Shown: positions 19,326 to 26,399, counted from the first letter of the stretch. The stretch: DNA of 64,000 bases from Deltaproteobacteria bacterium (GCA_029547805.1 JAKPOP010000003.1:186001-250000); one strand, 5' to 3'. Program-made: numbers and translations. The notes: generated by a model not told the origin, from the sequence alone.

Positions 19326-20204
19326 ATGGACGACCGCACGACGCGCATCACCACGATCCGGAAGATGATCGCCGACATGCCCCTGGGCACCGAGTGTCTG
19401 GTGGTGATCTACGGGTCGGGAATCGGCCGCAAGTACGACCTCTTCGAGGAGGAAGTCACCATCGGGCGGGACCCGGAGAACACCATCGTCCTGAACTCCG
19501 ACGCCGTCTCCCGGCGGCACGCCCGCGTCGAGAAGGTCGGCGACGCCCGATACGTGACGGACCTGGACAGCACCAACGGGACCTACATCAACGACATCCC
19601 GATCCGTCGCGCACGGCTCCCCAGCGGGGCCTTCCTCAAGATCGGCGACACGATCTTCAAGTACCTGACCGGCGATGACCTGGAGGCCGCCTACTACGAG
19701 GAGATCCACCGCATGGCGGTCACCGACGGCCTCACCCAGGCGGCCAACAAGCGGGCCATGGACGAGTTCCTGGAGCGGGAGATGTCCCGGGCCCGGCGGT
19801 ACAACCGGAACCTGGCCGTCCTGATGATGGACATCGACCACTTCAAGGACGTCAACGACACCCACGGCCACCTGATCGGGGACCAGGTGCTCCGGGAACT
19901 GGTGGCCGTGGTCCGCCCCCGGATTCGCCGGGAGGAGCTTTTCGCCCGATACGGCGGCGAGGAGTTCGTGGTGATCCTCCCGGAGGCGGACATCCAGTCC
20001 GCCCGGGAACTGGCGGCCACCCTCCGGTCGCTGATCGAGGACCACCTGATCGTGCTGGAGGGTCGCACCCTGCGGATCACCGTGAGCATCGGCGTGGGCC
20101 AGTTCCAGCCCGAGGTCCACCGGTCCCCCCAGGACCTCTTGAAGGAGGCCGATCGCAATCTCTATGCGGCGAAGGCCGCCGGGAGGAATCGCGTTCATGG
20201 CTAG
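19326..20204 (+). CDS. diguanylate cyclase with N-terminal FHA domain
   Basis: A 292-residue cytoplasmic protein. Residues 40-113 form a forkhead-associated domain (TIGRDPENTIVL, SRRHARVE, DSTNGTYIND) that would read phosphothreonine on a partner. Residues 130-290 form a GGDEF domain with active-site GGEEF (210-214), so it should make cyclic di-GMP from GTP. The product-inhibition site, normally RxxD ahead of the motif, reads RREE (201-204), so feedback inhibition may be weakened. Its stop overlaps the start of the PilZ gene. Input is probably a Ser/Thr kinase, a common design in myxobacteria, but no kinase gene is nearby. Confidence 0.93.
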   Translation: MDDRTTRITTIRKMIADMPLGTECLVVIYGSGIGRKYDLFEEEVTIGRDPENTIVLNSDAVSRRHARVEKVGDARYVTDLDSTNGTYINDIPIRRARLPSGAFLKIGDTIFKYLTGDDLEAAYYEEIHRMAVTDGLTQAANKRAMDEFLEREMSRARRYNRNLAVLMMDIDHFKDVNDTHGHLIGDQVLRELVAVVRPRIRREELFARYGGEEFVVILPEADIQSARELAATLRSLIEDHLIVLEGRTLRITVSIGVGQFQPEVHRSPQDLLKEADRNLYAAKAAGRNRVHG

Positions 20205-20775
20205 TCCGTCTTCCCCTTCGAGCCCCTCCAGCGGCGCGGCGGTCAACGAGACCTACATCGGGAGCCTCTTCGACTGCATCCGGGCCCTCCGGAAGGCCGA
20301 GCAGGAGGCCACGACCCCCTATGGCCGTGGCGACCCGATCCTGGCCACCCGCATCAAGGAACTGCGGACCTACCGGGACGTCCTGCTCAAGCAGGCCGCG
20401 ACCCAGAAGCCCCGCATGACCCTGACCGAGAAGAAGAACGAGGAGGCCTCCTACGACATGGCCCTGGTCTTCCCTTCGGGACTGTTGTTCTACGAGGCCC
20501 TGGACCTCTCCCTGTCCAAGGGGGGCCTCTTCGTGAAGACCGACCAGATCCTCCCCATCGACACCGTGGTGGACCTCAAGTGCACGATCGAGGAGGAGCA
20601 GATCGAGTTCCGGATCCAGGGGAAGGTGGTCTGGATCAATCCCCGGGAGACCGCCGGGAGACCCGCAGGGATGGGCCTGAAGTTTCCCCGAATCACCAAC
20701 ATGCAGCGGCAGATGTTGCTGGACTTCCTGTCGGGCGAGATCCCCCTGGCCGCCCTGGCCCACATGGGAGACTGA
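20197..20775 (+). CDS. PilZ-domain protein
   Basis: A 192-residue protein starting inside the end of the cyclase gene (8-nt overlap, ribosome site GGGAGG). After a Ser/Pro-rich start and a helical region, residues about 95-185 form a PilZ beta-barrel containing LDLSLSKGGLFVKT, which matches the D/NxSxxG motif. The paired Arg motif RxxxR, expected just before the barrel and needed for cyclic di-GMP binding in most PilZ proteins, is not visible. It may be the myxococcal PilZ subtype that works by protein contact. The overlap with a diguanylate cyclase strongly suggests a common pathway. Confidence 0.85.
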   Translation: MASPSSPSSPSSGAAVNETYIGSLFDCIRALRKAEQEATTPYGRGDPILATRIKELRTYRDVLLKQAATQKPRMTLTEKKNEEASYDMALVFPSGLLFYEALDLSLSKGGLFVKTDQILPIDTVVDLKCTIEEEQIEFRIQGKVVWINPRETAGRPAGMGLKFPRITNMQRQMLLDFLSGEIPLAALAHMGD

Positions 20776-20800: not shown

Positions 20801-22363
20801 TCAGAAGCGCGCCCGGGCGAGAATCGTGAAACCGAAGGCGTTCGGGTCCTGGAACTCGCGCTGGGACTGCCGCTCGCCCGTGGGGTCGATCACGAGGCGG
20901 GTCAGGTTCTCGTCCCGGACGTACTGGAAATTCCCCAGCAGGGCGAAGAACTCCGACAGATCCCACTGGAGCCCCACCCGCAACTGGTAGATCGGAACCG
21001 CCCCGAAGCCCGTGGGAAGGCGGTCCCGCCGCGTCGCGTCCCGGATCACCTGGACCGTCCGAGGGTTCGTGGTCTCGAAGGTGGCCGGGAACTGGATGCC
21101 CCCCGTCAGGAAGGGCATCACGTGCTGTTTCTCGAAATACCAGTCCACGGTGGCCGCCACGAAGTACTCGGGCGAGGCCTTGGTCCCCGTCTCCGGCAGG
21201 GCCACGAAGGGGGTCAGGCTCGGGACGTTCTGCAGGATGTACTCGAGGTTCCGGATCAGCCCGATGGCCTGGGCCCGGAGGTGGTCCCACTTGAACTTCA
21301 ACTGCACCGCCCCCGCGTAGGCCGGCTGGAGTTTCGTGCTGCCGTAGCGGTCCAGGTTCTCGAGGCGCTGGACCAGGTAGTTGAACTCGCCGGACACGGA
21401 CCAGGAGAACTTGCCCTTCTGGTACTTCTCGCGCCACCAGTCCACGACGTTCACGTCGGGATCGGACCGGTAGAGCATGTAGTCCACCGAGGTCTGGATC
21501 GGGAGGCCCTGGCGAATCGTCAGTCGGCCGGACCCTCCCAGGGTGTAGACCTTGTCCCCGATGAGTTCCTTCGTGCGGCTGAACGTCCCCTGCTGGAACC
21601 ACCCGAATCCCAGGTCCAGGCGGACCCACTCGTAGAGGTCGATTCCGAGCCCCGCCAGCACCCCGTAGTTGGTCTCCTGGACCGTGATCTCCTCGGCGTC
21701 GGCGGACCCCAGCTGGACCACCTGGCTCACCCGGGCCGTCTTGAGCCCGACGTATCCCGAAAGGGCCACGTTCTTCCCGGCGTCTCCTCGGACGTCCACC
21801 TTGAACCCTGGCGCCGGGCCGGTCTTCCGGCTGCTGAAGATGTTTCCGCCGCCCCAGGAGATGTCCCAGAGGTAGCCCAGGCGGAACCGCTCGGTGTCGA
21901 AGGGGAAGAAGGTCAGCCCGATGTAGTTCCGGTCCGGCGCCGCGGCATTCCAGGTCCAGGCCGCCCGGAGGTAGGTGCCATCGTCCCGGAGCACGTCGGT
22001 GACCCGGGGGTTCGTGCCCTCCATCAGGGACCCCAGGTCCAGTTTCAGCACCAGGCCCGCCTCCGTGGTGAGGCCCGTCAGGAACCCGGGCATCTTCTTG
22101 TAGAGCACGATGTGGGTCAGGTTCTCCCGGCCCTTGGTCTTGGTGTCCAGATTGTCCATGAAGAGTTCGTAGCCCTTCCGGTCCCCGATGCCGGGCAAGG
22201 GGCTGTCGGGGACCTTCTCGCCGGACTTCCGGGCCACGTCGTCGTCGCCGAAGGTCCAGGTGATCCGGGTGTCCATGAAGTCCCCGGCGAAGGCCGGCAT
22301 CGGCAGCAGGGCCACCAGTCCCAGGGCGAGGAGCCGCCAGATTCCGATCGAAGGTCTTGTCAT
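20801..22363 (-). CDS. outer-membrane beta-barrel protein, unknown function
   Basis: A 520-residue protein with a clear signal peptide (IWRLLALGLVALLPMPAFA) and many alternating strands, ending in an aromatic residue (ILARARF), as outer-membrane barrels do. The start at 22363 follows GGAGGAACC and overlaps the upstream gene's stop by 4 nt (ATGA). An early segment (GYELFMDNLDTKTKGRENLTHIVLYKKM) is conserved-looking but I do not recognise it. It is the last gene of the operon with the OB-fold lipoprotein and the 5'-nucleotidase, so it could be the uptake channel or surface anchor of that unit. This role is inferred only from position. Confidence 0.72.
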   Translation of the reverse strand: MTRPSIGIWRLLALGLVALLPMPAFAGDFMDTRITWTFGDDDVARKSGEKVPDSPLPGIGDRKGYELFMDNLDTKTKGRENLTHIVLYKKMPGFLTGLTTEAGLVLKLDLGSLMEGTNPRVTDVLRDDGTYLRAAWTWNAAAPDRNYIGLTFFPFDTERFRLGYLWDISWGGGNIFSSRKTGPAPGFKVDVRGDAGKNVALSGYVGLKTARVSQVVQLGSADAEEITVQETNYGVLAGLGIDLYEWVRLDLGFGWFQQGTFSRTKELIGDKVYTLGGSGRLTIRQGLPIQTSVDYMLYRSDPDVNVVDWWREKYQKGKFSWSVSGEFNYLVQRLENLDRYGSTKLQPAYAGAVQLKFKWDHLRAQAIGLIRNLEYILQNVPSLTPFVALPETGTKASPEYFVAATVDWYFEKQHVMPFLTGGIQFPATFETTNPRTVQVIRDATRRDRLPTGFGAVPIYQLRVGLQWDLSEFFALLGNFQYVRDENLTRLVIDPTGERQSQREFQDPNAFGFTILARARF

Positions 22364-23877
22364 GGTTCCTCCGTAGTCCGCACGCGGACGCACGCCGTCG
22401 CGGCCGATGGCGGATCGCCTTCCCGGGTCAGGTCGTCCTCGCACCTCGGCTCCAGGATCCAGGGCTTCGGTTTCAGGAATGACAGGTTGCGCAAGGTGCC
22501 GGTCACCGCCGACAGGTGCCGCGGCACCGTCGGGTCGAAGGGGTCGAAGGAGGGCACCGAGTCCCGGCTCGACACCCACAACTTGACCCCTCCCGGGCCG
22601 CCCACCCGAACGGGCCACTGGCCGTAGTCGTGGTACTGGGTCAGTTCCAGACAGAGGGGATTCGCGTCGCAGGACTCTCGGCACTGGCACTCGGAGTCGC
22701 ACGTGTTGGTGCCGTAGTCCCGGAAATTCACGGCGCCGTCCCCGTTCTGGTCGCAGTTCACGAAGTCCCGATCCGGGTCCGGCAGGTCCACGTCCCGGAC
22801 CCGCACCAGGGCCGCCTCCAGGGCCTCCATCGGCAGGGAACCCTTCCCATTCAGCGTCGTCGCATCGAGCGGCGCCGGTTCGGGAATCGGGCAGACATCC
22901 CGGGCCGGGTCCCAGGGAACCAGCCGCCAGGTGGGGAAGTTCATCTCCGTGAACCCGTAGAACTCGCTGAGGATCCCCTGGACCATCGCCAGTCGGTCAC
23001 AGGGCCGGACCACGATGGACTGCTGCGTCGAGCAGGCCAGGCTCTCCTGTTCGTCCTCCTGGCAGTCGGGAATGCTGGTGGGCGTGTTGAAGGAGAAGAC
23101 GAAGAGGTGGTTGTAGCCCCTTCCGGCCGTGTCGGCGATGTCGGTCACGTACATGCCATCGGAGGTGACCCGGGTGACCACCAGATCGCCTCGCTCCACC
23201 GTGACGTTCTCCCCCGCGAAAGGCGACTGGGACGCAAAGCCCTGCACCTCCGCCAGGGAGGGATTCTGGAACTGGATCGGCACCGACACCCCGGCGGCCC
23301 CGGAACCGGCGTCCTCGCTGTCATCGGTGCCATCGAGGCACCCGGGGTCGCCGCCATCGATCAGGCCGTCGCCATCGTCGTCCTGGCCGTTGGAGCAGGC
23401 CGCCACCTGGCCGATGCGGGTCCGGGGAACGAATCCCACGTCCGTCGCCCAGACATGGGTGGTCCCGAAGGCCGCCGTGAGAACCATCTCGATCCCTTCC
23501 CGGTGCCCCCCCTCCAACAGCACGTCGTTTCCGCCCACTCCCGTTCCGGGCACCAGGGTCACCTTGCCGGGCCGGGCCGAGACCCGGACCCATCGATCCG
23601 CCTGGACCCGCCCGGATCCGTCGGCGGCCTGGACCTCCAGGTCCAGCACCAGCCGAAGTCCCCGGGTCACGTCCGAGGGGTCCGGCATCGGCAGCGGCTC
23701 CGTGGGGCTCCCCAGGGACCCGTCATCGACCCGTCGCACGGAGACCCGAATCCCCGCGACCTCCTGGTTCCACGGCCGCACGACGTCCTGCTGGCAGGCA
23801 GCCGCCATCCCGATCAGGACGACGACCCCTCCCCGGCACCACCTGGCCCCTGGTCTCGACAAGTCCCCTTCCTCCAT
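22360..23877 (-). CDS. lipoprotein with NDDGDG-type motif and OB-fold (YhcR/ExeM-like) domains
   Basis: A 505-residue lipoprotein; lipobox GMAAAC (Cys28). After a 170-residue N-terminal part comes CSNGQDDDGDGLIDGGDPGC, a Ca-type repeat found in many myxobacterial surface proteins. Next is a segment (AEVQGFASQSPFAGENVTVE, then VTRVTSDGMYVTDI) that resembles the OB-fold domain attached to extracellular nucleases such as ExeM and YhcR. A second such fold may lie at the C-terminus (LSAVTGTLRNLSF), separated by another Asp-rich Cys segment. No nuclease active site is visible. It lies between the 5'-nucleotidase gene and the outer-membrane protein gene, with overlap or near-contact on both sides. 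Confidence 0.72.
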   Translation of the reverse strand: MEEGDLSRPGARWCRGGVVVLIGMAAACQQDVVRPWNQEVAGIRVSVRRVDDGSLGSPTEPLPMPDPSDVTRGLRLVLDLEVQAADGSGRVQADRWVRVSARPGKVTLVPGTGVGGNDVLLEGGHREGIEMVLTAAFGTTHVWATDVGFVPRTRIGQVAACSNGQDDDGDGLIDGGDPGCLDGTDDSEDAGSGAAGVSVPIQFQNPSLAEVQGFASQSPFAGENVTVERGDLVVTRVTSDGMYVTDIADTAGRGYNHLFVFSFNTPTSIPDCQEDEQESLACSTQQSIVVRPCDRLAMVQGILSEFYGFTEMNFPTWRLVPWDPARDVCPIPEPAPLDATTLNGKGSLPMEALEAALVRVRDVDLPDPDRDFVNCDQNGDGAVNFRDYGTNTCDSECQCRESCDANPLCLELTQYHDYGQWPVRVGGPGGVKLWVSSRDSVPSFDPFDPTVPRHLSAVTGTLRNLSFLKPKPWILEPRCEDDLTREGDPPSAATACVRVRTTEEP

Positions 23878-23883
23878 TCCGGT

Positions 23884-26343
23884 TCAGGGCGGCAGCAGTT
23901 GCAGGCGCCCGTCCTCGGCGATCCCGTTGGTCCCGTCGATGCAGGCCGTCTGTCCGCAGGCCAGCCAGACCGCCTGGTGCTGCCGGCAGCGGCACTCGGC
24001 CCCCTCCACAGCGTCCACCGACAGGTCCTGGCAGCGCTGGTCGAACTGGGCCGACAGGTCGTTCACGCAGGAAGCCAGCACGCAGCGGCCTCCTCCCGGA
24101 CACTCGGCCAGTTCCTGGCAGGTGGCCCCGTCCCAGGAGAGGCGCCCGTCACAGGAGCACCGGTAGCCCGAAGGGCACCCCCCCTCCCCTTCCCCGTCCC
24201 GAGTGCAGGCCCGGAGGTCCCCGCAGGGACGCCCCCCGCGCAGGAAGTCCATCAGGGCGTCCCGCTGCGGCACCCCCGTGTTGATCTGGGTCGTGTTCCG
24301 CTTCAGCACCATGAATCCCGACCCGCCCTTGGCGATGTAGTCGTTCACGGCCACCGAGTACTGCGAGTCCAGTTGCAACGCCTCGCCGTTGATCCGGATG
24401 TCCAGGGCGCAGCCCTCGGCATCGGGCCGCTGGACGGGCCAGGCCGCCGGCCGCCGGGACAGGTCGCACCGACCGCACTGGAGCAGCGCCCGAACCCCCG
24501 CCACCTGGGCCTGGGCCTGGCATCCCCGGCTGGAGGACCGACGAGCCACGTAGTCGAACAGTTCCACGACCTCGCGTCCCGAGAGGTACATCTTCGTGAT
24601 GCTGTTCTCGAAGGGAAAGACGTTGTAGAGGACGTCCACGGTCACCGGACCGGCGTAGATGTCGGACCGGATCCCCAGGCTGTTGGTCAGGGCGAAGTCC
24701 GTCTCGACGCCCTTGCGGCGCTGCATGGCCGCAGCCACGGCATTCCCGAGCGCCGAGTCGCCTCCCACGGTGCCGAACCGCTTCGCATCGGTCGGGGCGT
24801 ATCCCAGGACCTGGTCCAGGGGCACGGCCTCCTTGAGGACGTCCACGTAGGGCTCGAGGAGTTCCTCGATCACCCGGTCCCCGGGAACCCGCGCATCGAC
24901 CGGCAGAACCTGGTAGCGGAAGGAGGCGATTTCCCAGTCCTGGGTCCGCTGCCTGCCCCCGGTCGCCTCACTGCCGTCCAGCGCGTCCACGCACTTCGGG
25001 TCCTCCAGGTCCGTCCGCCCATCCCCGTCGTTGTCCACCCCGTCATCGCAGGGGGACGCCTGACGAAAGACCGCATCGAAGTCCCCGACGTACTTCGCGA
25101 AGGCCCCCGAGTGGGCCAGGGGAACCTTCCGGGGTGGCGGCAGGCGCAGGCCCATCTTCCGGGCCAGCGAAAAGCAGGCCCCCGCGACCTGATCCTCGGC
25201 GAAGGCCCCAATCGCATCCTCCCGAGTCCCCGTTCCCAGGGCGTCGATGGACGCCGGTGCCGCCGGGACCGACGACAGGGCCTCGATGCAGGCCTGTCGC
25301 CAGACCGGGCGGTCCCGAACCGGCAGGACGCCCCCGGTCACCTCCGGGACCCGGTCCACCAGGCGGGCCATCTCCGGCAGCAGGTCGTCACAAAGGGCCG
25401 TGACATCGGCCGACGAGGACCGCCGCAGCAGCGCCTCCCGCCAGATCCCGGACAGGCCCTTCACGCAGGCCGCGTCGAAGTACCGCGTCACCACCTCGTA
25501 GTGGCAGGACTGCCCATCGAGGACCTCCTTCGGCGGGTTCAGCACGATGTGGTGGTGCCCTCCCAGGACCAGGTCCGCGCCGGAGATGCACGGGATCAGG
25601 CGCTCATCCTCCGAGAGGCCCAGGTGGGAGGCGATGATGATCACGTCCACGTGGGGCCGCAGCAGATCGATGTAGAACTGGGTCGTCTCGGCGGCGTCCA
25701 TCGGGGTGATTCCCAGGGAGTTCGGCGACTCCACCAGGGAGGACATGCTGGAGGTGTTGCCCAGTCCGATCACGGCCACCCGGAGCCCCTGCAACTGGAA
25801 GACGTGGTAGGGCATCACGAGGTCCGACAACGGCGGCGCGGTCGGGGACAGGGGCGGAGAGATCAGGTAGTTGGCCGCCAGCACCGGAAAGGACGCGAAG
25901 CGGGCGATCCGGTCGGCCACGTTGGGTTCGCCGGCATCGAACTCGTGGTTCCCGATCGTCATCACGTCCACGCCGATCCGCGAGAGGGCGAGCATCTCCA
26001 CCTCGCCCTGGAAGACGTTGAAGATCGGGGCCCCCTGGAAGACGTCCCCCGTGTCGATGTGCAGGCTGCGATCGGCACGCTGCCGGATGGTCCGCGAGAG
26101 GTGGGCGATGCGTGCGATGCCCCCGAAGGGCCCGTTCTCGTCGGCCAGTCCCAGGGTCTTGTCGGTCTGGGCGACCTTCATCGGGTAGGGAAGCAGTCGT
26201 GAGTGGATGTCCGTGGTATGGACCAGGACCACCCGAACGTTCTGCCCCTCCAGGTCGGGCTGGGTGGTGGTGACCTGGCAGGCGACCGCGCAGGCCGTGA
26301 CCAGCATCGCCAGGATTCCGGGCCAACGATTCCTCGGCGCCAT
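23884..26343 (-). CDS. 5'-nucleotidase/metallophosphoesterase lipoprotein (UshA-like)
   Basis: An 819-residue exported protein. The start at 26343 is preferred because of the well-placed promoter and a GGGA sequence; 26352 is an alternative. The signal peptide ends AVAC (Cys22), so it is probably lipidated. Metallophosphoesterase motifs are complete: TTDIHS, GDVFQG, GNHEFD, a SHLG motif and GGHHH. The C-terminal 5'-nucleotidase domain (residues about 490-690) has GNAVAAAMQ and FPFENSITKMYLSG. Between the two lies CDDGVDNDGDGRTDLEDPKC, a Ca-type insert, and a Cys-rich tail of about 110 residues follows. It should release phosphate from nucleotides outside the cytoplasm. It leads a three-gene operon. 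Confidence 0.9.
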   Translation of the reverse strand: MAPRNRWPGILAMLVTACAVACQVTTTQPDLEGQNVRVVLVHTTDIHSRLLPYPMKVAQTDKTLGLADENGPFGGIARIAHLSRTIRQRADRSLHIDTGDVFQGAPIFNVFQGEVEMLALSRIGVDVMTIGNHEFDAGEPNVADRIARFASFPVLAANYLISPPLSPTAPPLSDLVMPYHVFQLQGLRVAVIGLGNTSSMSSLVESPNSLGITPMDAAETTQFYIDLLRPHVDVIIIASHLGLSEDERLIPCISGADLVLGGHHHIVLNPPKEVLDGQSCHYEVVTRYFDAACVKGLSGIWREALLRRSSSADVTALCDDLLPEMARLVDRVPEVTGGVLPVRDRPVWRQACIEALSSVPAAPASIDALGTGTREDAIGAFAEDQVAGACFSLARKMGLRLPPPRKVPLAHSGAFAKYVGDFDAVFRQASPCDDGVDNDGDGRTDLEDPKCVDALDGSEATGGRQRTQDWEIASFRYQVLPVDARVPGDRVIEELLEPYVDVLKEAVPLDQVLGYAPTDAKRFGTVGGDSALGNAVAAAMQRRKGVETDFALTNSLGIRSDIYAGPVTVDVLYNVFPFENSITKMYLSGREVVELFDYVARRSSSRGCQAQAQVAGVRALLQCGRCDLSRRPAAWPVQRPDAEGCALDIRINGEALQLDSQYSVAVNDYIAKGGSGFMVLKRNTTQINTGVPQRDALMDFLRGGRPCGDLRACTRDGEGEGGCPSGYRCSCDGRLSWDGATCQELAECPGGGRCVLASCVNDLSAQFDQRCQDLSVDAVEGAECRCRQHQAVWLACGQTACIDGTNGIAEDGRLQLLPP

Positions 26344-26369
26344 CGCGACCATCCCGCGATCGACGGCGC

Positions 26370-26399
26370 AGCATAGGAGGACAGCGCCTGTCTTGTCAA
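26370..26399 (-). promoter_or_regulatory. promoter for the nucleotidase operon
   Basis: On the minus strand: perfect TTGACA, 18 nt, TATGCT. Transcription would begin near 26363, giving a leader of about 10-20 nt and supporting a start codon at 26343 or 26352. Between here and the next promoter at 26511 I see nothing else. Confidence 0.6.

Follow-up and report, generated by a model that had tools for sequence, protein, structure and literature searches.

A conserved operon encoding a lipoprotein 5'-nucleotidase, an OB-fold lipoprotein and a probable outer-membrane barrel in Myxococcota

In the genome of a Deltaproteobacteria bacterium, three consecutive genes encode a lipoprotein 5'-nucleotidase, a lipoprotein with a predicted double OB-fold module and a probable outer-membrane β-barrel, referred to here as NUC, LIP and BAR, and this operon is retained in about a third of the sampled genomes of Myxococcota. 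The genes are located in a window of 64,000 nucleotides, which is the whole stretch of DNA that was analysed (G000:C25:186001-250000; genome size 4.08 Mb). We tentatively propose that NUC, LIP and BAR form an outer-membrane unit for the scavenging of nucleotides or oligonucleotides, a reading for which the arguments on the two sides are close to balance.

Operon structure and conservation in Myxococcota

All three genes are encoded on the minus strand. NUC (P0001, 819 aa; 23884..26343) is separated from LIP (P0002, 505 aa; 22360..23877) by a gap of 6 nt, and LIP overlaps with BAR (P0003, 520 aa; 20801..22363) by the four nucleotides ATGA, which confirms the three-gene operon first noticed from the sequence alone. 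An in-frame ATG at position 26352 is a possible alternative start of NUC. The good promoter that had been claimed for the operon is also borne out, as a putative sigma-70 type site is formed by the -35 element TTGACA (26394..26399, minus strand) and the -10 element TATGCT (26370..26375, minus strand) with a spacer of 18 nt; each of the 8 upstream regions of close relatives that were aligned has TTGACA, and a TA-rich -10 hexamer follows 17 to 18 nt after it. Regulation via a Pho box was considered and dropped, as no Pho-box-like element was evident by eye in the aligned promoter region, in which only the -35 and -10 elements are conserved. The operon is followed by a convergent gene for a PilZ-domain protein (window positions 20164-20775); downstream PilZ-type neighbours on the opposite strand recur in close relatives only.

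Conservation was assessed in a sample of 379 genomes of Myxococcota. The BAR profile detects a homolog in 128 and the LIP profile in 118 of these genomes; 117 genomes possess both (Fisher P about 1e-83, phylogeny being ignored), and in 114 of them, LIP and BAR are encoded on one contig at a distance of at most 4 kb. In a set of 40 regions anchored on LIP, NUC, LIP and BAR are adjacent, in that order and on one strand, in all regions save at contig ends. To avoid a choice based on LIP, another 40 regions were anchored on BAR, most of them in different families; three of these are cut by contig ends, and 35 of the 37 testable loci have the three genes in the same order on one strand. The remaining two loci (L137 and L144, family f36) contain BAR alone, with neither NUC nor LIP beside it, and together with G323, they make up three f36 genomes that keep BAR and in which the LIP profile finds nothing. 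Adjacent genes of the set mostly overlap or are separated by very little sequence; among 39 loci, the reading frame of NUC runs into that of LIP in 27. Gene trees calculated for 72 loci show distance correlations of 0.84-0.88 and have 45-49 of 69 splits in common; thus, the set is mostly inherited together across the phylum, to which the species history contributes as well. Co-inheritance alone does not prove that the three proteins form a complex. No fourth gene conserved across all loci was found, and searches of plasmids revealed no relative of BAR and, for NUC, only ordinary nucleotidases.

Several lineages carry extra OB-repeat proteins with one to four ExeM-type units, some of them with a visible lipobox, the genes of which separate LIP from BAR or directly precede NUC (L113:2575-3507, L116:8172-11609, L118:3-2657, L129:7888-9363, L136:5040-6704 and L145:8441-9979). 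The L116 protein lacks a nuclease domain but includes two lamin-tail stretches, and a lamin-tail gene adjoins NUC in L114. In family f30 (L120, L127, L146 and L147), LIP is followed by a tandem pair of BAR genes.

Properties of NUC, LIP and BAR

NUC is composed of a metallophosphatase lobe (aa 38-275; PF00149, 3.8e-9), a C-terminal substrate lobe (about aa 497-697; PF02872, 1e-25) and a Cys-rich tail (aa 707-801), and its closest solved structures are 5'-nucleotidases. An acidic double-disulfide repeat, which resembles a calcium loop, is inserted at aa 431-460 (24964..25053, minus strand; NF033662, E 9e-7, under the curated cut-off). The metal ligands D45, H47, D100, N132, H240, H263 and H265 and the His-Asp dyad H133/D136 are invariant in 34 of 34 family members, so that both domains and all these residues of a 5'-nucleotidase are present; however, NUC scores 152 bits against the UshA equivalog NF007109, whose cut-off is 600. 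N554, R559, F578 and F677 of NUC correspond to CD73 N390, R395, F417 and F500. The base-clamping Phe pair and the equivalents of N390 and R395 are retained in the family, and NUC also possesses the equivalent of R375 besides that of R395. The complete set of phosphate-binding Arg residues of the CD73/UshA substrate site is, however, not found: no Arg occupies the column of CD73 R354 or UshA R379 among the family members tallied, and the NGGGIR motif reads N[ST][LT]GIR. The sequence-only reading had assigned every UshA-type motif plus a lipobox to NUC; the lipobox is confirmed, whereas 'every' goes slightly too far in view of NGGGIR and the R354/R379-type Arg. Since this Arg is lost, the substrate of NUC may differ from AMP; judged from its sequence, NUC probably hydrolyses phosphoesters in nucleotide-like compounds.

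LIP starts with an Ig-like β-sandwich domain (aa 39-148; 23434..23763, minus strand), followed by an acidic double-disulfide repeat (aa 157-188; 23314..23409, minus strand), which is recognised by NF033662 in 30 of 34 members, and a predicted double OB-fold module of the ExeM/YhcR type (aa 206-485; 22423..23262, minus strand). The second OB half harbours a Cys-rich, EF-hand-like insert, NCDxNGDG (aa 374-410; 22648..22758, minus strand), with the conserved columns C375, D376, G381, C399, C403 and C409 and weak matches to EF-hand and dockerin models. A relative of LIP with 81 percent identity is present in Myxococcota bacterium. In agreement with the lipid anchors predicted for the first two proteins, the lipobox cysteines Cys22 of NUC and Cys28 of LIP are invariant in the family alignments.

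No Pfam match over the cut-off was obtained for the LIP protein of the window. The structures of LIP and BAR were predicted from an input of four sequences, which resulted in weak models; for LIP, the mean pLDDT is 42.6 and the β-sandwich domain is the sole confident part (block pLDDT about 55-86). Because of this weak model, Foldseek returned no LIP match below 0.001, with only weak hits of the N-terminal domain to other β-sandwich domains, and the assignment of the OB folds rests on profile comparisons, which do agree with the OB segments proposed earlier. With the LIP family profile, a match was obtained to the N-terminal portion of an endonuclease/exonuclease/phosphatase (EEP)-domain protein, PDB 9sf8/9sf9 (E 2e-5), and six family members match the ExeM/NucH model NF033681, of which LIP has the OB-fold module, but neither the C-terminal EEP domain nor a score over the cut-off. 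In hhalign comparisons, LIP matches 12 Myxococcota ExeM-type proteins over the OB region with a probability of 96.6, while 20 column-shuffled profiles reach at most 0.5 percent, which rules out a chance match. The comparison with 14 OB units of neighbouring lipoproteins reaches a probability of 98.2 (E 3e-14) and spans aa 206-485; therefore, LIP holds one complete double OB module. An EEP domain was not matched in any of 34 LIP members, and the ExeM alignment ends before the nuclease part, as anticipated for a protein without a catalytic nuclease domain. LIP accordingly shares its double OB module with the ExeM/NucH DNases, but not their catalytic EEP domain. An OB fold in the second protein and a gene order conserved beyond its own genome were the two points on which the sequence-only reading had been staked, and both are found. 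In ExeM, the corresponding region, which consists of two putative OB folds, is required for nuclease activity and was proposed to contact the substrate (PMC6085458).

The family-wide loss of the R354-equivalent Arg and alteration of NGGGIR would also fit an alternative in which NUC acts on other phosphoesters such as UDP-sugars, cyclic nucleotides or cofactor nucleotides, and LIP binds glycans or a polyanion, the operon thereby serving surface sugar or cofactor processing. UshA-type enzymes are promiscuous, and OB folds bind oligosaccharides as well as oligonucleotides. However, the OB module of LIP is of the specifically nuclease-associated ExeM type, the neighbouring genes bear lamin-tail and further ExeM-type OB domains and NUC retains the base-clamping Phe residues; we therefore consider this alternative unlikely. 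The calcium-loop-like repeats and Cys-rich stretches of NUC and LIP would suit extracellular adhesins, and the operon might encode a matrix or adhesion unit, in which LIP binds extracellular DNA of a biofilm or of prey remains, while the trimming of nucleotides by NUC serves signalling or detoxification instead of nutrition. This explanation gives no reason for a porin-like barrel to be so strictly linked and seems very improbable.

BAR has a signal peptide, 17 predicted strands (about 16-18, the count being uncertain) and an aromatic C-terminus, all of which are expected for an outer-membrane β-barrel, although the model is of low confidence (mean pLDDT 47.7, pTM 0.53). The C-terminal residue is F, and nearly all relatives end with ARF or ARY. 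Foldseek matches of the 520-aa protein are led by outer-membrane barrels, with maltoporin and Opd/Occ porins at the top, which is consistent with the barrel-like protein with an aromatic end described before. No named family of Pfam or NCBIfam fits BAR; Pfam matches among its members are weak, barrel families being the most frequent. Because of the weak model, BAR was assigned to the barrel class only, and it is probably an outer-membrane barrel of an unnamed family. A pore lined with Arg residues for phosphate was considered as well; with 59 basic and 58 acidic residues, the charges of BAR are in balance and give no support for it. In large-genome families (e.g., L049, L055 and L062), BAR has a long Pro/Ala-rich N-terminal extension, which is absent in the family of the window.

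The segment comprising aa 29-110 of BAR is highly conserved. These roughly 80 residues are located largely ahead of the barrel strands, and one barrel is strictly linked with two lipoproteins; along with the Pro-rich N-terminus found in some lineages, this could indicate that BAR does not serve as a nutrient channel, but as an export or display device, which delivers the two lipoproteins to the cell surface or retains them at this site, similar to Slam or LptD/E-type pairs. However, the three f36 genomes keep BAR without a match to the LIP profile, two of their loci have neither NUC nor LIP beside BAR, and the Pfam search of BAR did not reveal a domain such as TPR. We regard this alternative as improbable.

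A possible route for nucleotide scavenging

For the scavenging unit that we prefer, a location at the outer membrane is suggested by the residues at position +2 of the lipoproteins, as Lys was found there in only one NUC and one LIP. In M. xanthus, Lys at +2 is the signal for inner-membrane lipoproteins, and two 5'-nucleotidases are among the outer-membrane lipoproteins (PMC3222651). Therefore, the outer membrane is favoured for NUC and LIP. We infer that both may face the cell surface, that nucleotides may be the substrate and that BAR may act as a channel in a physical complex with them. LIP would use its double OB module to retain nucleotides or pieces of nucleic acid at the membrane, and NUC, anchored beside it, would strip the 5'-phosphate from nucleotides that nucleases from other loci have set free. 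BAR could then pass the products, nucleosides and/or phosphate, over the outer membrane, or keep both lipoproteins in place.

No nuclease gene is present within the operon; cleavage of the polymer would be supplied from elsewhere, with EEP-domain proteins of the own genome as a possible source. This genome contains eight EEP-domain matches, several of them in proteins with lipoprotein-like N-termini. Four such unlinked proteins on other contigs (L162, L164, L166 and L168), some of which have acidic linkers, are candidate secreted nucleases or phosphodiesterases. Contig C11 encodes another nucleotidase (L002), which is shorter and has an N-terminus resembling that of a lipoprotein.

The scavenging reading is based on the kept gene order, the invariant catalytic residues, the ExeM-type OB module, the additional OB and lamin-tail proteins, the +2 residues and the EEP proteins of the own genome. 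Counted against it are the operon without a nuclease, the loss of the Arg, the weak barrel model and the absence of a sign of phosphate regulation, as well as the fact that sugars and proteins are further ligands of OB folds. The interpretation offered by the sequence-only reading is thus partly supported, and the function is plausible. Full-length ExeM exceeds the cut-off in 10 of the 379 genomes (L149-L158), none of which possesses BAR; such a distribution has a chance of 1.5 percent if phylogeny is ignored, and might mean that one system has replaced the other, or might simply follow phylogeny. In a bolder form, the three proteins would be a dedicated, apparently TonB-independent complex of Myxococcota, in which surface LIP captures nucleic acid, surface NUC removes phosphate and BAR, a barrel of a new family, imports the product directly, thereby replacing one-chain ExeM-type nucleases; we consider this rather unlikely.

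Myxococcota are known for predation and the degradation of other cells. The operon provides a functional context for two protein families without a Pfam or NCBIfam name. If the scavenging reading is true, it would represent an outer-membrane route to nucleotides and extracellular nucleic acid, with parts of ExeM-type DNases acting as separate anchored proteins.

Comparison with known systems

No description of a NUC-LIP-BAR unit was found in a limited search of the open-licence literature, which is weak evidence of novelty. NUC shares the two-lobe architecture (PF00149 and PF02872) and the invariant metal and dyad residues with UshA and CD73, but differs from them as it is a lipoprotein with a large insert containing the acidic repeat, a Cys-rich tail and no R354/R379-type Arg. 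The partnership of a barrel with a surface lipoprotein, as in XusA-XusB and SusC/D-type systems, serves as a working analogy, and XusA is one of many Foldseek matches of BAR; neither BAR nor LIP matches the Pfam families of SusC, SusD or TonB receptors. In Ca. Izemoplasmatales, loci for DNA degradation encode a nucleic acid-binding/lamin-tail protein colocated with DNA-degrading genes and transporters (Wasmund et al. 2021, PMC8289736). These monoderm loci differ from the NUC-LIP-BAR operon in having a nuclease domain, other transporters and no outer-membrane barrel.

The closest relationship of LIP is with the ExeM/NucH DNases (NF033681), such as ExeM of Shewanella oneidensis and Xds of Vibrio cholerae, with which it has the double OB module in common, and some NUC-LIP-BAR operons also contain lamin-tail domains. 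In contrast to these enzymes, LIP lacks the EEP catalytic domain, is a separate lipid-anchored chain and is partnered with a nucleotidase and a barrel. In YhcR, a nucleotidase part is present in addition and the protein is one wall-anchored chain. YhcR of Bacillus subtilis is a nuclease with OB folds of the type found in LIP (PMC4118848). A fusion of OB folds, nuclease and nucleotidase in one chain is not found here, where the parts are separate outer-membrane-type proteins and a nuclease is missing. The earlier idea that the parts of YhcR are split and anchored agrees with the separate genes and the conserved lipoboxes. Read most simply, the operon has the non-catalytic parts of DNA-feeding proteins of the ExeM/YhcR type as separate anchored proteins, which would work together with a nucleotidase and an outer-membrane barrel.
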